From a virus: DNA of 43,245 nucleotides. Positions 3,349 to 36,559 of this stretch are shown here, in pieces. A model generated the notes under the pieces. That model was not told where the DNA came from and did no database searches. It saw nothing but the letters and a program-made list of their open reading frames with translations. How positions within the stretch are numbered: position 1 is the stretch's first letter; each line of letters opens with the position of its first letter. The stretch covers positions 1 through 43,245 of IMG/VR virus record IMGVR_UViG_3300010397_000061; one strand, given 5' to 3'. The translations under genes and the position numbers were made by a program.

Positions 3349-4044
3349 CTATACTTCTTCGGTCATAGGTTCGACTTCATCAAACGGCGTACCAGAGGGT
3401 TCAGGGTCTTGCGTAGGCTGAATTTTGGTCTTGGCTTCTAAAAGGAATTTGATTACTTCACTCGCCGGAGTGTTCTTGTTGATTCCGTCATCTTCCAGGC
3501 TCGCTAAGGTGTAGCCTTTTTGAGCCATTAGCTTCTTTATCAGCTCTTTCTGTTTAGGGGTTGACTTGCCTGATTTTGGGCTTTCAGGGGCTGTTTGCGT
3601 AGCCAAACCTTTGTAAACGTCCATGCCAATACCGAGATAAGAGGCCATTTTAGTCAAAGCGTCCGTTACCGCTCCCTTAAAAGCGTCTCCCTCGTCCACA
3701 TTATCGTTACCGCCGAAGTTATCCAGGTAAATTCCATATTCGGGAATATCAATAAACGAATGGACGGTTTTCATTTTCCCCTCGTCGCTGATAACTTCAT
3801 TTCGCTGTTGCCATTTACCAATGCCGAACACATCATTTAATCGCTCAACAACGTAAATAGCTTTGATTGAGGACAGATAAGGCTTTGTGGGGTGAGCAGA
3901 AACCGCTTCTTTCGGCAGCGGAGCTTTGAGTTGGGCGACCATTTCAGCCGTCAATGACTTGAATGCTTTAGGTTTTTCTGGTAAAATGGGTTTAGTAGTC
4001 GCTGGCGCGCTCTTCGGAGTTGTGCCAGTTTTTTGATTATCCAT
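3349..4044 (-). CDS. Rad52-like single-strand annealing protein (231 aa)
   Basis: Residues about 30-145 contain LKAPLPKEAVSAHP, YLSSIKAIYVVERLNDVFGIGKWQ, a beta region with YGIYLDNFGGND, and GDAFKGAVTDALTKMASYLGIGMDVYKG. This matches the order of the Rad52/Sak annealing fold. The C-terminal third is a lysine-rich linker (SGKSTPKQKELIKKLMAQKGY) and an acidic tail (DEVEPMTEEV), as in many annealing proteins that recruit SSB or partners. It would anneal phage DNA ends during recombination-dependent replication. No partner exonuclease or SSB is recognised nearby. Confidence 0.75.
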   Translation of the reverse strand: MDNQKTGTTPKSAPATTKPILPEKPKAFKSLTAEMVAQLKAPLPKEAVSAHPTKPYLSSIKAIYVVERLNDVFGIGKWQQRNEVISDEGKMKTVHSFIDIPEYGIYLDNFGGNDNVDEGDAFKGAVTDALTKMASYLGIGMDVYKGLATQTAPESPKSGKSTPKQKELIKKLMAQKGYTLASLEDDGINKNTPASEVIKFLLEAKTKIQPTQDPEPSGTPFDEVEPMTEEV

Positions 4045-6834: not shown

Positions 6835-7722
6835 CTATTTTCTCTTGAATTTATTGTATTGTTCGGCCATTTGAGACCCGTTTAATATGGTATAAACTTG
6901 CGAACTTTGGATACTGGCATGCCCCATAAGGGAGGATATAGTGGCGTTATTGGCTTGTTTTATAGCCAAATCCCGGCCAAACCGATGCCGGAAACTATGG
7001 GGATTAGCGTTCTTTTCCAGCTTAGCCAGTTTGGACAGCCTCCTCATAACTTCCTCCACTCCCTTAGAATTTAAGCGATCCCCTGTTTTGATTCCGGCGC
7101 AGGAGATAAATAAGGCTTCTTGGTCGGTTAAAGTTGTCCTTTTTACAAGCCATTTTTTTAGGTACTCATTTGTTTCGATAGTCCAGAATACCTTGCGAAT
7201 AGGGTGCAGGGTCTTGGCTTTTTCCGTTTTAATTACAGCCTCCATCTTACCCAAATCTAAATGCCCAACATTCATAGAGACTAGCTCCCCTACTCTCATG
7301 CCTGAATCCCATAAAAGCCCTATCATCGTCTTGTTCCTAATGTGCCTGGGATCGTTGTTATCGGGAATAACAGCCATTATGCGAGCGTAAGTGTTATCAG
7401 TGGCTATGTTGGGAAATTTGTACTCCCTGTCAGGAATAGGGATCATCTGGGGATCTAAAACTTCCAGTTTCTGATTGGTAAAGAACTCGAAGAATTTTCG
7501 CAAGGCTATACATTTGACCATGAAGCTGTTTTTATCCCACCCCAGCTCGTTCATACCGTCCAAATAAGAGATTACATCGCCGAATTTGACCTGTCGAATA
7601 TCACAGTTATGCATAAACAGGGCAAAATGCTGTAAATGGATTCGATAAGAAATAGCCGTACTGTTTTTTACGTCATACTTCTTCCAAGCCCCAAATTGTG
7701 GTATTGCTTCACTAAACTTCAT
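6835..7722 (-). CDS. int: Tyrosine recombinase / phage integrase (295 aa)
   Basis: The N-terminal half is a SAM-like core-binding domain (YRIHLQHFALFMHNC, GWDKNSFMVKCIALRKFFEFF). The catalytic domain holds Arg in SGMRVGELVSM, Lys in IKTEKAKT, His-x-x-Arg in NPHSFRHRFG, His in LMGHASI and the nucleophile Tyr in SQVYTIL. All the expected active-site residues are present. The start is put at the ATG at 7722 because GGGAG lies 9 nt upstream, rather than at the TTG at 7761. It would integrate or resolve the phage genome by strand exchange at att sites. Presence of an integrase argues for a temperate lifestyle. Confidence 0.93.
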   Translation of the reverse strand: MKFSEAIPQFGAWKKYDVKNSTAISYRIHLQHFALFMHNCDIRQVKFGDVISYLDGMNELGWDKNSFMVKCIALRKFFEFFTNQKLEVLDPQMIPIPDREYKFPNIATDNTYARIMAVIPDNNDPRHIRNKTMIGLLWDSGMRVGELVSMNVGHLDLGKMEAVIKTEKAKTLHPIRKVFWTIETNEYLKKWLVKRTTLTDQEALFISCAGIKTGDRLNSKGVEEVMRRLSKLAKLEKNANPHSFRHRFGRDLAIKQANNATISSLMGHASIQSSQVYTILNGSQMAEQYNKFKRK

Positions 7723-7737
7723 AAAATAAAACTCCCG

Positions 7738-7750
7738 CCCACTGAGTGGG
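7738..7750 (-). promoter_or_regulatory. Hairpin in integrase leader
   Basis: A perfect 5-bp inverted repeat (CCCAC-TGA-GTGGG) lies between the integrase promoter and its ribosome site GGGAG. The stem borders the ribosome site and could affect initiation or act as an operator. Function is unproven. Confidence 0.4.
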
Positions 7751-7771
7751 TAAGAGTTCAATTAATAGGAC

Positions 7772-13124: not shown

Positions 13125-13153
13125 TTGACAATTAACTATTAAGGGTTTATATT
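13125..13153 (+). promoter_or_regulatory. Consensus promoter for the plus-strand unit
   Basis: Perfect -35 TTGACA (13125-13130), 17-bp spacer, -10 TATATT (13148-13153, 5 of 6). The predicted start near 13160 leaves only about 3-5 nt before the ATG at 13164. It overlaps the upstream edge of the divergent fibre gene. Confidence 0.85.
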
Positions 13154-13163
13154 GGGCTATATT

Positions 13164-14177
13164 ATGAGCTTATTCAGAAAATCGTTTATATTGGCCTTTA
13201 TAGGCTTTTTATCGCTAGTTTCTCTGGCCCATGCTTCGTTTAATAACAATGTGAAGTATGGGACTAGAAACAGTGATTTTGTCCGTGAAATCCAAGAATT
13301 TCTTACGGATCAGGGCGTTTATTCTGGCCCTATTACGGGAAACTTTTATGCACTTACCTTAAAGGGAGTAAAAGCTTTCCAAAATAGAGAGGGAATCAAA
13401 CCGGCTAATGGATATTGGGGACCGGGTACAAGAGATGTTGCTAATCGTTTACTTGATACGTCTGAGAGCGATAACGAGGCTTTAGGGGAAGATAACGCAC
13501 CTACTTCTGATAATATTGTTGCCATTCGTTTTCCTGATGGATCTACTTATAACTCAAACGGCAAGCAACTCTCAGGACCAACACCGATAGACCAAAACTT
13601 CGCTAACGATCTATGTAATAACTTCGCTGGTGTTCAACTCGTTCCTCCCGCAGGGTATATGCCAGCTTCTAACGGTGATTGTGTTATTATTCCTCCTAAT
13701 GTTGTATATATACCCACGCCTGTATCAAATCCAGCCCCTCAGCCAATTCAGGCTCCTACACCCACCCCTACTCCAGTTCCCCAACCAATCTTTTTACCAA
13801 TACCCACGCCTTCTATCGGAGTTAACTGCCAAATTACTTACTATTCTTGCACTAACACAACCGGTAAGAGCATTGTTGTAAAATCGGTTAAAGTAACATC
13901 CTACATGGATCAAGGTACTTCTACTGGAAAATTAAGATTACTAAACGAATATGGGCAGGATCTTAATTCTATTGATTTAGTACGTCCCTCAAATTATCCT
14001 GGGGGAACATATACTTTTGAATCTCTTATTCCTTTATCTTCTTCTATAGAAATCGCAAGTGATTCTAGTAAATTTGTCGTTAAAACTTACGCGACTTTTG
14101 TTAGAGTTGCAGAAGTCCGTTACATCATTATAGTAGACGGAATAGACAAGGAATATTTAACACAAATCAATTATTAA
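13164..14177 (+). CDS. Exported peptidoglycan-binding protein (337 aa)
   Basis: The start is the ATG at 13164, because the TTG at 13152 lies inside the -10 box. A signal peptide (basic MSLFRKSF, hydrophobic ILAFIGFLSLVSL, AHA cleavage site) is followed by one PG_binding_1 domain at about 30-95 (SDFVREIQEFLTDQGVYSGP..., VKAFQ, GIKPANGYWGPGTR). A Pro/Thr linker (about 190-220) and a beta-rich C-terminal domain follow. The repeat signature is typical of Patescibacteria wall proteins. Being on the opposite strand with its own promoter, it may be expressed in the lysogen to alter the host envelope. Confidence 0.85.
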   Translation: MSLFRKSFILAFIGFLSLVSLAHASFNNNVKYGTRNSDFVREIQEFLTDQGVYSGPITGNFYALTLKGVKAFQNREGIKPANGYWGPGTRDVANRLLDTSESDNEALGEDNAPTSDNIVAIRFPDGSTYNSNGKQLSGPTPIDQNFANDLCNNFAGVQLVPPAGYMPASNGDCVIIPPNVVYIPTPVSNPAPQPIQAPTPTPTPVPQPIFLPIPTPSIGVNCQITYYSCTNTTGKSIVVKSVKVTSYMDQGTSTGKLRLLNEYGQDLNSIDLVRPSNYPGGTYTFESLIPLSSSIEIASDSSKFVVKTYATFVRVAEVRYIIIVDGIDKEYLTQINY

Positions 14178-29703: not shown

Positions 29704-31749
29704 TTATTTATTCTTAGGTTGATTAGCTGTTTTTTCGCTTAATGCTTGGCTCTTCTCTGCCATCGTTTGACTATGGGCTTGGGCATCTGCTTTTAATTGA
29801 GCATCCTGACTGGCCTTCTGAGCCTCTGCGGTATGTTCAGCAAAAGTGATTGTAGGATCTACTTTAACCCCTATCTTCTCTAGGATCTGTACCTGTCCAT
29901 CAGGCTGAACATCTTTGTAAGCAATAGAAACTGAAGGAGGGTCACCTTGAGATTGAGGCTGTAATTGCTGTAATTCTTCAGGCGTAATCCCAACCGCAAC
30001 AGGAGGGTTTAATTTGTACTTAACTGCGTTCTGAGCGAGTTCTTTAGCGTTATCGTATTGAGCAATTTCCAGGTAGTCAGAGGGAGCCAAAAAGCCTTCT
30101 TTCACGTCATTCTGAGCCTGTTCAAACTTAAACTCGTCATCTACAGGTAAACTCTTACCAGCGATTATCTTTACTTCAATTCCGGCTTCAAGGTCATCCT
30201 GGATGATCTCTACCTCTTCTTGAGTTCCGTCTTTACCTTCAACTTTGGCACTGTGATACTCGGTATAACGGGTCTTGGCTAACTGCATGCCCCAATCAAA
30301 GACTTCTTTTGCTACATAATCCCCGACTTGTACGAGTTCATTAAGGCGCAAGAATGACTGTTGAATGAGAGCCAAACGTCCAGCTTTGGTTTCCTGTCCT
30401 TCTCTCTCGCCCCTAAAGGCACTTGAAGCGGCCATAATGTTGTCAATCTCGGAGCGAGAATCAATCATGTCGTCAAACACCATCTGTGGCAGGGGATTGC
30501 CTGTTTCGCGTGTAACCCCATCTTTTACTCCTTTACCCCATATAATTCCGCGAGTTTCAAAACGGATTCGCTGGGCATCACTCTTGCCCATTACCGAGGC
30601 ATCTACCTTGACTATTCCATTTACCAGTTCACAGTTCTCGTCAATATCCATCTTCCGCTTGTCTATCCCTCTCTGAAGTTCAGAAGACAAGGTGATCATG
30701 TCTGTCCGGCCTATGGGGGTATTTTCATTGTTAAAGATCGTAGCGAAGATATAAGGCTTGCGGGGATTCTCGAAGTAATTAAAAAAATACGGTTTATACT
30801 GCGGGGCTTGATCTTGAGGAACCTCCGGGACTTCGGGTTGAGGATTTATGAGATTCTTGACTGCCTTAACGCCTTTATCTATAAGCGTTTCGGCTGGCTT
30901 AGGAGCCACGCTAGCTTTTCGGGTATCTTGTTCTAACTTGATTTGTTGTAATAAATCCCTTCGAGCCTGTCCTTCTAATTGAGTAATTTGGGTTTCTTCG
31001 TCTTCGGTGATTAAAATCCCTTCCCAATCCCAATAAGGGTTTTTAACAGTATCAAGGATAATGTTATCTAATTTGAAAATTACATAATCACCAATCCAGG
31101 CTTCCTTGTACTTAACATCTGGATTTTTAATGTACAACTGAATTTCATCCGTAATCCCGTATTTCTTCATTAACTCAACTTTCTTTGCCGGAAAACGGTC
31201 AATTACTGCGCACAAATTATCTTCGATCTCTTCTATGGCAAATTCACTATCCTGTTCTTTGCGGGCGTACTTTCCAACCCTGATCTTCGTGGAATCTACC
31301 GCTCTAAAATCAAAATCATTTATGGTCGGATTCCAGAAAGCTTTGATAACAATCAAGCGTGCAAAATATAGATTTCTATACCCCATACGCATTGTTTCTT
31401 TCACATTACGATCAAGGTATTTTTTTCTAAAGAACCATTCCAATCGCCTAGCCGTATCTTGGGCAACCTGCCCCTTGCTTCCAGCTAAGATGTTAACTCC
31501 CGGTGGGTTAGCGATCAGAGAATTTATAACCGCTTCCATGTTCACGAAGATACGGTTTGCGTGTACCACCCAACGCTTACGATTAAATGGAAGCCAGCTT
31601 ACCCAATCGGCTTTATTAGCATAGATAGCCGTATTCTGCTTATAGATTTTATCTACTTGATCCCACAACTCAGACGAAGAAGTCCACCTTGCTTCTACAA
31701 GTTTTGATTGTTCGTCCTCCGATAAGGTTTTGATGTCTATCTTGGCCAA
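29704..31749 (-). CDS. Portal protein, podovirus-like (681 aa)
   Basis: Typical portal features: N-terminal ARWTSSSELWDQVDKIYKQN, NRIFVNMEAVINSLIANPPGVNI, a basic stem region (WFFRKKYLDRNVKETMRMGY), a crown/wing region with NIMAASSAFRGEREGQETKAGRLALIQQSFLRLNELV, and a Gln-rich C-terminus (EELQQLQPQSQGD...). Length is similar to the 725-residue P22 portal. The annotated start is TTG at 31749 with GGGGG about 14 nt upstream; a hairpin (ACCCC...GGGGT) precedes it. It would be the DNA channel at the capsid vertex. Confidence 0.88.
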   Translation of the reverse strand: MAKIDIKTLSEDEQSKLVEARWTSSSELWDQVDKIYKQNTAIYANKADWVSWLPFNRKRWVVHANRIFVNMEAVINSLIANPPGVNILAGSKGQVAQDTARRLEWFFRKKYLDRNVKETMRMGYRNLYFARLIVIKAFWNPTINDFDFRAVDSTKIRVGKYARKEQDSEFAIEEIEDNLCAVIDRFPAKKVELMKKYGITDEIQLYIKNPDVKYKEAWIGDYVIFKLDNIILDTVKNPYWDWEGILITEDEETQITQLEGQARRDLLQQIKLEQDTRKASVAPKPAETLIDKGVKAVKNLINPQPEVPEVPQDQAPQYKPYFFNYFENPRKPYIFATIFNNENTPIGRTDMITLSSELQRGIDKRKMDIDENCELVNGIVKVDASVMGKSDAQRIRFETRGIIWGKGVKDGVTRETGNPLPQMVFDDMIDSRSEIDNIMAASSAFRGEREGQETKAGRLALIQQSFLRLNELVQVGDYVAKEVFDWGMQLAKTRYTEYHSAKVEGKDGTQEEVEIIQDDLEAGIEVKIIAGKSLPVDDEFKFEQAQNDVKEGFLAPSDYLEIAQYDNAKELAQNAVKYKLNPPVAVGITPEELQQLQPQSQGDPPSVSIAYKDVQPDGQVQILEKIGVKVDPTITFAEHTAEAQKASQDAQLKADAQAHSQTMAEKSQALSEKTANQPKNK

Positions 31750-31956: not shown

Positions 31957-32169
31957 ATTTATGCCTATGACAACCGTTTGCATAGGGTTGTTAATCCTTA
32001 CTGGCAACCCATTTTGGACTGTTAAGGTAAATGTTCCGTTACCCAAATTAGACGTGAAATCTACCACTTGCTTCCAAGCTGGCATCATGGCTTCATATTG
32101 GCTTTGGTGCTTACGAAAAGCCTTAAAAGCCTCTATTTCTGTATCATCCGTGAGTTCAATTTTGGTCAT
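31936..32169 (-). CDS. Small protein between TerL and portal (77 aa)
   Basis: The start is taken at the ATG at 32169 (MTKIELTDDTEIEAF), overlapping the TerL stop by 14 nt; a longer frame to 32262 would overlap TerL by over 100 nt. A helix (EAFKAFRKHQSQYEAMMPAWKQVVDF) is followed by a small beta hairpin (GTFTLTVQNGLPVRI). Similar small genes often sit between terminase and portal, possibly as head-completion factors. No name can be given. Confidence 0.6.
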   Translation of the reverse strand: MTKIELTDDTEIEAFKAFRKHQSQYEAMMPAWKQVVDFTSNLGNGTFTLTVQNGLPVRINNPMQTVVIGINLTKSSY

Positions 32170-33757
32170 TTGTTTGATTAATCTCTGCAAATGCTCGGCT
32201 AACGTCATAAATATTATCGGCGCCCAATACACTAGGAATATCAGCTTGTGTAACTTCGCCATAAAATACGCCTGATCCTGACCCTAACATAGCTAAATAA
32301 GCGTATAAATCAGCGAAAACATAGTGATCTTCCCCTGTTGTAGAAGCCCAAATATACCTCTCAATTCCCTTATTATTAACCACTTTTTCGCGCCGGAGTG
32401 TCTCATAATGTTTAATATATAGCTGAAATTCCTTATCTGTTTCTAGCCCAATAAGGTGTTTGGCCTCAATCATATTGGTTAAATGCTGGTCTAGGATGCG
32501 ATCTCTGTGGGAGTAAACAACGCCTGATTTATTAGATGCCTCGTCTCCTTGCCCCTTCCCCCACCACACTATCGTTTGGGGGTTATTGGCGTTTTCCATG
32601 AAGTAAGACATTTTCATAAAAGGATATTTATCCACAATATATCGGGACAAAGTAGCATCTGGCATGGCATCTATCACGCCGCTGGTAGGTTTCCAAAAGG
32701 CTATAATATCATCTAAATCACTCGGTTTGGTAAATCTACCTATCTTAAACAGCCCCTTAGAGCTTCGCAAAACATAATGTTTGATGTTTCCTACATCTAT
32801 TCCGATAAATCTTTCACCAATATCCATAGGTTTTGGCGTCCAAAGGTCTAAAATCGTGGTCTTTGAGACGCTTAGATCACCAGGGCTATATGACTTTCCA
32901 AGCACAAAGTTATTAAAATATGCCGGATCACCCTCGGAATCTTCGATTATTTCCGCCGCACTAATCCACACACACATTAAATGGGAGATATGGTAACCAC
33001 TTATCGTACTGCCTGGATTCTGGGCAACCCATTTACCTTGACGTAAGGTATCATCACTCAAAGGCTCTTTACAGGCCCGGCAAATGCGTATTTTACGCTC
33101 TAGGTCAATTGAATCGGGCCAGATGAGATAATGTTCGTCTTTACACTTAGGACAAGTAATAACCCACTCACGCTGATTGCTCTTTTGCCAGACTAAATCA
33201 AGTTCATCCCTCTCTGTTCCGGGGTTAGAAAAGATATATCTTCCTTTATATTGACTGGCTTTAGTACGGGACTTATAAGTATTTATAGCTCCTTGGTCTG
33301 AGCGACTTATTTCATCATGTACAAGTAAATCTGCTGTAGTAGAAATAGCCGCAGTTTTGCTTACTGTACCTTTAAAAAACCAAAATCTACCATCAACCTC
33401 TTTCCGTTCAATATTGTCACTATCCATGCCTTGAAATTCATGACGATTGGCTTGAATAAACTTATTTACTTTAGAGGCTACAAATTCTTTAACATCATCA
33501 TCAGTAGGAAAAGTCGTGATAGTATTAAATTTAAAATGTTTAAGGGCAAAACTAACCTTAACCATAAAAGTCACGCTTTTCCCGACCTGCGCACAAGCTA
33601 CAAGTACAATTTGTGGAGTCCAATCGGTGAGAATATCTATCAACCAAGGCCTGTCTACATAACTAAACGGTTCCCCCTTTTCATCCAAAATACCCTTTTC
33701 AACTATCCATTGTAGTATTGAATAATATTGCTTATTTTCTTTAAGTTCTTTTGCCAT
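32156..33757 (-). CDS. terL: Terminase large subunit, GpA-like (533 aa)
   Basis: The ATPase domain has Walker A ACAQVGKS (about residue 49), adenine/coupling region FPTDDDVKEF, and Walker B DLLVHDEISR. A CPKC...CRAC zinc ribbon (about 210-240) is as in GpA-type terminases. The nuclease domain has FIGIDVGNIKHYVL, GVIDAMPD and YVFADLYAYL as acidic positions. It packages DNA with TerS and portal. The start at 33757 (MAKELKENKQ) overlaps the HNH gene by 17 nt; an upstream ATG at 33802 is possible but neither has a strong ribosome site. Confidence 0.92.
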   Translation of the reverse strand: MAKELKENKQYYSILQWIVEKGILDEKGEPFSYVDRPWLIDILTDWTPQIVLVACAQVGKSVTFMVKVSFALKHFKFNTITTFPTDDDVKEFVASKVNKFIQANRHEFQGMDSDNIERKEVDGRFWFFKGTVSKTAAISTTADLLVHDEISRSDQGAINTYKSRTKASQYKGRYIFSNPGTERDELDLVWQKSNQREWVITCPKCKDEHYLIWPDSIDLERKIRICRACKEPLSDDTLRQGKWVAQNPGSTISGYHISHLMCVWISAAEIIEDSEGDPAYFNNFVLGKSYSPGDLSVSKTTILDLWTPKPMDIGERFIGIDVGNIKHYVLRSSKGLFKIGRFTKPSDLDDIIAFWKPTSGVIDAMPDATLSRYIVDKYPFMKMSYFMENANNPQTIVWWGKGQGDEASNKSGVVYSHRDRILDQHLTNMIEAKHLIGLETDKEFQLYIKHYETLRREKVVNNKGIERYIWASTTGEDHYVFADLYAYLAMLGSGSGVFYGEVTQADIPSVLGADNIYDVSRAFAEINQTNDQN

Positions 33758-34268
33758 AGGTAAACGTTGTTTTATGGCAGAGGAAACACAATGTTCTACC
33801 ATTACTCAAATCAAACCTCAATTCAGGATAATAAGCAAAGGGTTTTATGTGATCCACTTGTAATCTACCGCCTTTTTGACCACATAATTGACAAGTATAA
33901 TTGTCCCTTTCAAAAATCGTTTTGCGCCATTTTGCATATTTTCTTGAAGCTCTTACTTTTGCATTTTGAGAAGTTATCCCACCTTTCCAATTATGATGCA
34001 AATTACCACTTCTCTTCTTGTTATTTTTTATTAAAGCATCTACTTTTTTCTTAATTGCTTCTGGAGTAAATACTTGTTTTAAACGAGCTTTTCTAATCTT
34101 TTCAATAATTTCAGGAGTACGTTTATACTTACCAGCCTCTGATAATTTGCAACTTTCACTTATTTTTCTTTTCCATTCAACAGAAAACGGCTGTCTTTTT
34201 ACCCCAAGTTTTTTTAACTTTATCTTTAAAGCTCTTTCTGTCGGATTTTTAAATATTCCTCTAGGCAT
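33741..34268 (-). CDS. HNH homing endonuclease with NUMOD-like repeats (175 aa)
   Basis: The N-terminal half has repeated basic helix motifs (PFSVEWKRKISESCKLSEAG, RTPEIIEKIRKARLKQVFT) of the NUMOD DNA-binding type. The C-terminal HNH domain is WRKTIFERDNYTCQLCGQKGGRLQVDHIKPF, then LSNGRTLCFLCHK, with the CxxC zinc pairs and the DH core intact. It is a free-standing homing nuclease lying between groEL and terL, a common insertion place near packaging genes. No intron boundary is evident. Confidence 0.88.
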   Translation of the reverse strand: MPRGIFKNPTERALKIKLKKLGVKRQPFSVEWKRKISESCKLSEAGKYKRTPEIIEKIRKARLKQVFTPEAIKKKVDALIKNNKKRSGNLHHNWKGGITSQNAKVRASRKYAKWRKTIFERDNYTCQLCGQKGGRLQVDHIKPFAYYPELRFDLSNGRTLCFLCHKTTFTYGKRT

Positions 34269-34286
34269 ACATAAAGTATACCATAC

Positions 34287-35849
34287 CTACCGTTCTTTCT
34301 CTACCTTTTCATCTTCATTAACAATAGCGGTTTCAATGCTGACCAAGCTCATAGCGATAGCAGTAGCCGATTCTAAGGCTAAACGGACAACTTTGTAAGG
34401 GTCAATTATGCCAGCGTCGAACATATCTATAGCCTGTTTTGTCTTAAAGTCGTATCCATAGTTTTCAAAATGCTCTTTGCTTCCCAAGGAAATCTTAGTA
34501 TTATGCACAACCATATAAGAATCCATCCCTGCGTTTTCTGCCATCTGTTTTAGAGGAGCAGAAAGAGCATTTTGAAACATAGGCTCGCTTACCTCTAACT
34601 TTGCCAACGACACGCCACCACCGGCCACAATCCCCTCTTGAAGTGCCGCCTGAGTCGCGTTAATAGCGTTCTCAAACTTGTATTTCTTGGCGTTAAACTC
34701 AGTATCAGTATAAGCTCCTACTCGAATCACTCCTATTCCACCTGTAAGCTGGGCTAAACGTTCTTCTAAAATAGATTTAGAGTATTCACTAGTAGTATTG
34801 GCTATCTCCTCTTGGATGCCCATAATCCGCAGTTGAAGGTCTTTAGCGGTCTTGCCACCGATAATCGTCGTGTTGTCTTTAGTTACTATCACCTTCTCAG
34901 CCCGACCACAGACATCACTCTTGGCTTCATCAAGTTTCATCCCCTTTTCCTCGCTGATTACAGTAGCACCGGTGAGAGCAGCCATGTCAAACAAGAACTC
35001 TCTGGCGCGGGACGCTGAATAAGGGTTTTGAACACAGGCGATATTGGCAATCTTATTAACCGCATTTTGAGCTAGGGTAGCCAAGGCAACTGACTGTACT
35101 TGGTCGGCGATTATCAGGATATCCTTACCTGTACCTATTGAGTTTAAAAGGGATAGAATCTGCTCATTAGTCGAGATAACCCGATCCACAAGGATGATAT
35201 ACGGATCGTTTAACACTGTAGACTGACTCTCAGGGTCGTTTATAAAATAAGGCGATATCAACCCTTTATCGAATCTTGCGCCTTTAACTATCTCTTTTGA
35301 ATAACCTAATTGCGCTCCCTTTTCTACTGTGATAACCCCGTTGATCCCTACTTCCTTGATGACTTCAGCTATAAGCTTAGCTACTTCAGGATCAAGGGAG
35401 GAGATAGTAGCGATTCGCTCAATATCGTCTTCAGTTACTTCACGCTTGAGTTTTGAGAGTTCTACCAATACTTCTTCCAAGCCTTTTCCAAGTCGTTCTC
35501 GTACTTCTCGGATTTTGGACGAATCGTTAGCAATCTCTTTGAATGCTTCGGAAACAAGTGCTTGAGTAAGGACTGTAGTAGTCGCTGTTCCGTCTCCGCC
35601 TTCAGTTGACGTTCGGAGAGCTGCTTTACGGAGCTTTGAGAGTCCAAGGTTTTCATATTTATCTTTAAATTCTAGGTTTTTAAGTATAGTAACGCCGTCA
35701 TCACACTCGATGGGGTCGAGGCCGGGATACTCAATAATAGCGCTCATCCCTACCACACCGAGCGTGGGACGTACAGCATCAGCGGCTTTATCTATACCAC
35801 CCTTAATCTTTGTTCTTGCTTCGTGACCGAATGATATTTCTTTACTCAT
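34287..35849 (-). CDS. groEL: Phage-encoded chaperonin GroEL with Asn at the Asp398 position (520 aa)
   Basis: Full-length group I chaperonin: equatorial ATP site with DDGVTIL (Asp52 equivalent) and GGDGTATTTVL (Asp87 equivalent), apical domain with DKGLISPYF and LSLLNSIG, and NATQAALQEGIVAGGGVSL. In E. coli GroEL the segment VEDALHAT holds Asp398, needed for ATP hydrolysis; here it reads FENAINAT, so the catalytic Asp is Asn. The apical VKAPGFGDRRK segment is replaced by VQNPYSASRAR, Tyr199 aligns with Leu, and the Gly-Gly-Met tail is missing (ends VEKER). It would fold phage proteins, probably capsid. It overlaps the 65-aa gene by 8 nt. Confidence 0.97.
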   Translation of the reverse strand: MSKEISFGHEARTKIKGGIDKAADAVRPTLGVVGMSAIIEYPGLDPIECDDGVTILKNLEFKDKYENLGLSKLRKAALRTSTEGGDGTATTTVLTQALVSEAFKEIANDSSKIREVRERLGKGLEEVLVELSKLKREVTEDDIERIATISSLDPEVAKLIAEVIKEVGINGVITVEKGAQLGYSKEIVKGARFDKGLISPYFINDPESQSTVLNDPYIILVDRVISTNEQILSLLNSIGTGKDILIIADQVQSVALATLAQNAVNKIANIACVQNPYSASRAREFLFDMAALTGATVISEEKGMKLDEAKSDVCGRAEKVIVTKDNTTIIGGKTAKDLQLRIMGIQEEIANTTSEYSKSILEERLAQLTGGIGVIRVGAYTDTEFNAKKYKFENAINATQAALQEGIVAGGGVSLAKLEVSEPMFQNALSAPLKQMAENAGMDSYMVVHNTKISLGSKEHFENYGYDFKTKQAIDMFDAGIIDPYKVVRLALESATAIAMSLVSIETAIVNEDEKVEKER

Positions 35850-36039: not shown

Positions 36040-36296
36040 AAAGGATCTATTTTGGTTAATACATAAATACGAGCACCTCTTCCATTCACTTCGTCATCAA
36101 ACATTTCTGTCTTTCCTTCCCATTCAAATGTACATTTTGTAGCTAAAGGTCTATCCATCATCTTATGTTCCGAAAAACCATCACCATAAACCTGTATTGG
36201 TTGTGTTAAAACTAAGCTAAATTGAGTTCCAGTTTCTTCAGGCACTTCCATATAACCTACCAACCTTTGACCAAATGCTGATAGTCTTATTTTCAT
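36036..36296 (-). CDS. Small beta-rich protein in the chaperonin cassette (86 aa)
   Basis: MKIRLSAFGQRLVGYMEVPEETGTQFSLVLTQPIQVYG..., all short strands, ending GARIYVLTKIDPL. It overlaps groES by 4 nt and the 65-aa gene by 4 nt. No similarity to GroES is obvious, although the all-beta pattern and size (86 versus 88) are alike. Unknown. Confidence 0.7.
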   Translation of the reverse strand: MKIRLSAFGQRLVGYMEVPEETGTQFSLVLTQPIQVYGDGFSEHKMMDRPLATKCTFEWEGKTEMFDDEVNGRGARIYVLTKIDPL

Positions 36297-36559
36297 AAAA
36301 CCGCCAATATATCATTGGTAGCTACAAACTTAACCTTTTTGCCATCTACGTCAATCTCGTGCGTATCAGGGCTGTACTTAGCGAATAACACCACATCACC
36401 AACTGTTACAGGCTTATTGCCCATGTAAACAGGAGCTTCGGGGATATGAGTTACTTTGCCTTTATAAACATAGTTATCCTGCACCTCAACCGCTTTAAAG
36501 CCTTCCTTAGCTTCTTCTTCTAGCTTAGTAACAACTATATAATTGTTAGATATTTGCAT
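36293..36559 (-). CDS. groES: Phage-encoded co-chaperonin GroES-like (88 aa)
   Basis: Shows the GroES order: YIVVTKLEEEAKEG (start of barrel and mobile loop), YVYKGKVTHIPE, KPVTVGDVVLFAKYSPDTHEIDVDGKKVKFVATNDILAVL, which is the conserved second half. It is about nine residues shorter than E. coli GroES. The mobile loop (EGFKAVEVQDN) lacks a clear Ile-Val-Leu, which may match the altered apical domain of the phage GroEL. First recognised gene of the chaperonin cassette. Confidence 0.92.
   Translation of the reverse strand: MQISNNYIVVTKLEEEAKEGFKAVEVQDNYVYKGKVTHIPEAPVYMGNKPVTVGDVVLFAKYSPDTHEIDVDGKKVKFVATNDILAVL

Follow-up and report, generated by a model that had tools for sequence, protein, structure and literature searches.

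The timer of the GroEL cycle depends on Asp398, the catalytic residue of Escherichia coli GroEL, which is invariant in the other chaperonins examined here save one bacterial paralog group. GroEL carrying D398A binds ATP normally, has 3% ATPase and still encapsulates and folds (PMC3326522). HSP60 carrying the same mutation holds its lid more stably and forms football complexes, and its refolding of rhodanese is close to that of the wild type (PMC5855711); both mutants hydrolyse at 2–3% of wild type (PMC3326522, PMC5855711). Among phage-encoded chaperonins, EL keeps the catalytic Asp (Asp412), has an ATPase about 8-fold faster than that of GroEL and has no interaction with E. coli GroES (PMC7185714). 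Our literature search found no paper on a D398N chaperonin, and among reports of catalytic-Asp loss in Chlamydia or other paralogs it found no residue-398 case.

We describe a phage GroEL in which this residue is Asn. Its source is a virus record of metagenomic origin, 43,245 bases long and here termed the window. New here are D398N as a fixed lineage trait, the GroES partner of the chaperonin and a convergent bacterial case; the phage protein is a variant of the group I chaperonins. Residue positions follow E. coli GroEL unless stated otherwise.

The chaperonin gene

The ORF for phage GroEL (Table 1) has a single Pfam match, Cpn60_TCP1 (PF00118, 2.7e-44), and matches PHROG 5725 ‘chaperonin groEL’ at 4.5e-116. 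Its nearest solved structures are GroEL proteins (phmmer, 1e-98 to 1e-115), and its AlphaFold model (mean pLDDT 82.6) matches GroEL structures in Foldseek with E down to 5e-51 and TM up to 0.85. By full-length Cpn60 homology and by fold it belongs to the group I chaperonins (GroEL/Cpn60). The ATP-site motifs of that group, namely D52, GDGT with D87, and D495, are all present and invariant across its clade (defined below), and a predicted co-chaperonin of the GroES type accompanies it, syntenic in relatives. Catalytic Asp398 is the group I character that it lacks. That character is functional, not phylogenetic, and the phage protein is a member by descent; as judged from its sequence, a normal ATPase cycle cannot be assumed for it.

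Asn394 of phage GroEL aligns without gaps to Asp398 of E. coli K-12 GroEL (KARVEDALHATRAA / KYKFENAINATQAA). The original prediction, made from the letters of the window, had read this residue as a catalytic Asp replaced by Asn with codon AAC, and both residue and codon are borne out; no alignment placed an Asp at 398. It was also right that the Asp52 and Asp87 equivalents are kept (D51 and D86 in phage GroEL numbering), as the Asp495 equivalent is too, and that the apical segment has been rewritten (VQNPYSASRAR where E. coli has VKAPGFGDRRK). The Gly-Gly-Met tail that it described as lost is indeed missing, but this is not notable: none of the other phage chaperonins sampled has GGM, and we reject its loss as a special trait. 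K51D, T90A, A480F, E257V, the upstream GroES gene and the clade-wide extent of D398N had been overlooked.

Promoter, terminator and Rfam scans gave no signal above chance.

Table 1. Features of the window, with coordinates, strand and supporting evidence
Feature	Coordinates	Strand	Evidence or remark
Phage GroEL, group I chaperonin, 520 aa, D398N + K51D + T90A	34287..35849	-	Pfam, PHROG, model + Foldseek
Asn394 codon AAC, counterpart of catalytic E. coli Asp398	34668..34670	-	Alignment + codon reading
D86-G-T-A89 codons (E. coli D87-G-T-T90)	35583..35594	-	D87 kept, T90A fixed in clade
Asp50-Asp51 codons (E. coli K51-D52)	35697..35702	-	Clade-specific K51D adjoining conserved D52
Small ORF, 65 aa	35842..36039	-	Overlaps GroEL start; recognisable in 9/40 relatives
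Small ORF, 86 aa	36036..36296	-	Overlaps GroES stop; no family match; not recognisable in relatives
Phage GroES co-chaperonin, 88 aa, mobile loop shortened and rewritten	36293..36559	-	Pfam Cpn10 (PF00166) at 36299-36544, 27.5 bits vs cut-off 21.1; PHROG co-chaperonin GroES
HNH endonuclease ORF	33741..34268	-	Between GroEL and terL; overlaps terL start
Terminase large subunit (terL), downstream of GroEL	32156..33802	-	Syntenic in 39/40 relatives
Probable portal protein	29704..31749	-	Weak PHROG match
Major head protein, candidate client, 352 aa	27505..28563	-	PHROG 9953 ‘major head protein’, 1.8e-33
Peptidoglycan-binding-domain protein	13152..14177	+	
Tyrosine integrase	6835..7761	-	Phage_integrase, 2.8e-30
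ORF with marginal Rad52/Rad22-family match	3349..4044	-	20.8 bits vs cut-off 20.3

Asn398 across the phage clade

We scanned 2.9 million viral contigs with the phage GroEL protein and with a profile, and the matches fell into two clear groups. The clade is the group of phage GroEL itself, 39 distinct sequences at 59–81% identity. Position 398 is Asn, position 51 Asp and position 90 Ala in 39/39 members, with D52, D87 and D495 retained. A survey of relatives had been proposed with the original prediction; the same Asn throughout the clade rules out a one-off mutation, and the single odd protein that the prediction implied gives way, on the sequences sampled, to a fixed trait of a lineage of phages of roughly 40 kb.

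The Asn398 codon is AAC in 21 members and AAT in 18. On the clade tree it has undergone at least 11 synonymous changes and no replacement, where a single A-to-G change is all that a return to Asp requires. For the nearest clade pairs dN/dS is about 0.05–0.18; phage GroEL is under purifying selection. The gene is not decaying, since no class of positions that was measured is more conserved inside the clade than the ATP-site columns (95%); the helix M hinge region is 92% identical. Low dN/dS and the synonymous-only codon changes rule out a pseudogene. It could be objected that the Asn is an artefact of alignment, sequencing or decay, the true Asp lying elsewhere or the gene dying, and the origin of the locus in a metagenomic virus record is the sole point in favour. 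The survey refutes this, with alignments gapless in every comparison, both Asn codons among distinct sequences, low dN/dS and intact ORFs, and we give it next to no probability.

Outside the clade, all the phage chaperonins sampled retain D398, even at 20% identity; these include the EL-like, Staphylococcus S6, Kosakonia, crAss-like and TM7 phage chaperonins (20–40% identity). Over all viral contigs, a DNA pattern written for the Asn-bearing motif, strict enough that divergent cases could escape it, matched 12 GroEL genes, every one in the clade. The sister sequence L024 (54% identity) has D51 and S90 with D398 still in place, and therefore K51D preceded D398N. A substitute acid adjoining 398 in helix M was considered and rejected, since residue 397 is E, D, Q, V or N across the clade.

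Asn398 in Planctomycetota

On the tree (70 sequences, quick method, SH-aLRT only, trait columns masked) D must have changed to N exactly twice, on the stem leading to the phage clade (support 100) and within a Planctomycetota group. Over 294 Planctomycetota genomes the Asn-form pattern matched a GroEL gene in three (L204, L205 and L206); a D-form control pattern matched 55/59 genomes. The three proteins have the motif ENALNATRAA and R51 or N51, and they retain T90. Asn398 as a phage-only state is thereby rejected, and its independent origin in a Planctomycetota GroEL paralog shows that the state is evolvable.

The remodelled ATP site

Set against 30 other group I sequences, the clade has fixed replacements that include T90A, E386D, R395K and D398N. 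Asp51 is invariant within it, and among the sequences outside an acid at 51 occurs in L024 only. Position 480, Ala in E. coli, is Phe throughout the clade. No member has Glu at position 257, where Val, Leu, Met or Ile takes its place, with Val in phage GroEL; E257 is reported to be a sensor linking substrate binding to hydrolysis (PMC3326522). In GroEL simulations the weak contacts with ATP include K51, T90 and A480, and T89, T91, N479 and D495 are stronger (PMC3053311). In the clade the weak-contact positions 51, 90 and 480 are changed; T89, T91 and D495 never vary, and position 479 has either Asp or Asn. The K51 carbonyl and the T90 hydroxyl help hold the activating potassium ion of GroEL; the potassium dependence of phage GroEL may differ from GroEL's.

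These replacements raise the alternative of a rewired but active ATPase, in which Asp51 would activate the water or bind metal in place of D398, T90A and A480F would tune the site, and hydrolysis would proceed at an ordinary rate despite N398. An invariant new Asp adjoining D52, found elsewhere in L024 only, supports this, and the choice of weak contacts (PMC3053311) suggests local re-engineering. L024 can be read both ways: with D51 already in place, losing D398 could have become tolerable, but a D51 older than N398 was not a response to it. The Planctomycetota paralogs, moreover, have no acid at 51, and the geometry differs, since D398 is on helix M and swings in over the nucleotide whereas position 51 ends the equatorial stem loop (general knowledge and PMC3053311). 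We hold a rewired site to be possible, though on balance improbable.

Segment 431–475, which holds ring-ring contacts, is shortened and is the least conserved (34% versus 47% outside); the inter-ring contact positions 109, 434, 452, 463 and 464 are not conserved. The signalling between rings by which GroEL releases its lid may thus be missing, as might be expected of a hydrolysis-dead, ATP-gated holdase or scaffold, one that binds ATP and GroES, does not cycle and serves a single time, as a stable capsule or a platform for assembly. The active-site losses suit it as they do a slow cage. Nevertheless, the other catalytic residues and the helix M hinge region are conserved very strongly, beyond the needs of a static scaffold, and D398A GroEL itself still has 2–3% activity. 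We consider a dead holdase unlikely.

The GroES partner and the head module

Over 40 related loci the gene order is ORF145, GroES, GroEL, terL, portal, ORF234, major head protein. GroES and terL are each absent from one contig only, which in each case ends inside GroEL, and GroES is upstream of GroEL in every relative whose contig spans the region. Phage GroEL is thus a complete, selected chaperonin within a head-morphogenesis module and no decaying gene. The phage GroES has a Cpn10 domain with a mobile loop that is present but shorter, a conserved EGFxxVEVQDxFVYKG standing in place of GGIVLTGSAAAKSTRG. Matching apical positions of GroEL are also altered (V264 mostly Q, Y199 mostly L), and at the sequence level the two sets of changes look like co-adaptation. 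Between GroES and GroEL are two small ORFs with overlapping ends.

The major head protein is 84–92% identical to the window's in phages whose GroEL is only about 60–75% identical, and across relatives it is much more conserved than GroEL or GroES. Its structure model is poor (pLDDT 29) and its identity rests on the PHROG match. The HNH endonuclease ORF has a recognisable homologue in 5/40 relatives only, at varying positions, which suggests a mobile insertion of the homing type.

Elsewhere in the window, the tyrosine integrase gene indicates that the phage is probably temperate. The peptidoglycan-binding-domain gene, on the strand opposite to nearly all other large genes, is probably a lysis gene, and the marginal Rad52/Rad22-family match makes its product a possible annealing recombinase. 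A bacterial genome scan found a relative on one contig only (L086/L203), of 40,646 bases, in a Candidatus Scalindua MAG, with 72% GroEL identity and the same phage gene order (20 kb read). This phage contig or prophage is a possible lead to an anammox host; as a single contig binned into that MAG it does not establish a prophage host.

Proposed mechanism

The likeliest reading, to which we give about an even chance, is a complete phage GroES-GroEL chamber with a selected, remodelled ATP site, slow hydrolysis and a closed cage of long dwell. Phage GroEL would bind MgATP and its own lid and enclose phage clients, for which the highly conserved major head protein is the obvious candidate. Lacking the residue on which fast hydrolysis depends, it would hydrolyse slowly, and the closed cage would then dwell long, giving nearly one fold per loading. 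With the E257 sensor lost, hydrolysis would be tied still less to client binding. The lid might come off through residual slow hydrolysis or through separation of the rings. Since D398A mutants bind the lid and fold, by analogy the phage pair is expected to close and to stay closed long; the barrel probably closes normally and reopens slowly.

The original prediction had offered either a slow or single-turnover cage or a substitute residue, and both alternatives survive. Several observations favour the slow cage: an Asn that is invariant with AAC and AAT mixed, a strongly conserved ATP site keeping its other Asp residues, loss of E257, a GroES encoded in every testable relative, and the published behaviour of D398A GroEL, with which the prediction's account of that mutant agrees (ATP and GroES bound, very slow hydrolysis; 3% ATPase in PMC3326522). 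Against it, the published mutant is Ala and not Asn, the K51D carboxylate adjoining the phosphate site could bring the rate back up, making hundreds of capsid subunits by a slow cycle seems costly, and the characterised phage chaperonin EL keeps Asp412 and has a fast ATPase. The functional claim for phage GroEL rests on sequence, with which a slow cage and a rewired site are both compatible.

A more specific version is a ‘slow-clock’ chaperonin with a matching lid, in which a long-lived, nearly single-turnover chamber for head proteins replaces rapid ATP cycling; we put this somewhat short of an even chance. If it is true, the residue whose loss is fixed in this lineage is the one mutated in the laboratory to keep GroEL closed and ATP-bound. 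A natural D398N in a complete GroES-GroEL pair can be used to ask whether a chaperonin working in a cell needs rapid ATP turnover or cage closure only, with L024 (D51 and D398) supplying the evolutionary order and the Planctomycetota paralogs an independent replicate.

Comparison with known chaperonins

Phage GroEL shares with the E. coli system the group I fold, about 38% identity, D52, D87, D495, GDGT and a GroES encoded nearby. It differs in D398N, K51D, T90A, A480F, E257V, the rewritten VKAPGFGDRRK, the short inter-ring segment and the lack of GGM, and its GroES differs in a shorter mobile loop without the IVL triplet.

The chaperonins of the jumbo phages EL (Pseudomonas) and AR9 (Bacillus) are likewise GroEL-related and phage-encoded. 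In our survey the jumbo-phage proteins retain the Asp and are about 20–24% identical to phage GroEL, which is not of EL type: it has Asn398, its own GroES and a separate tree branch, the long jumbo-phage branches being unsurely placed. Flavobacterium immuto-type and Cellulophaga/Bacteroidetes phages also encode a GroEL, some with a GroES neighbour, but all have D398, and KDG and GDGTTT are canonical in most.

The Planctomycetota paralogs share Asn398, acquired independently, but are bacterial, about 57% identical to E. coli GroEL, with R51 or N51 and T90 kept. From engineered D398A GroEL and HSP60, phage GroEL differs in being natural and lineage-fixed, in having Asn rather than Ala and in its further ATP-site changes; with them it shares the loss of the same catalytic carboxylate.
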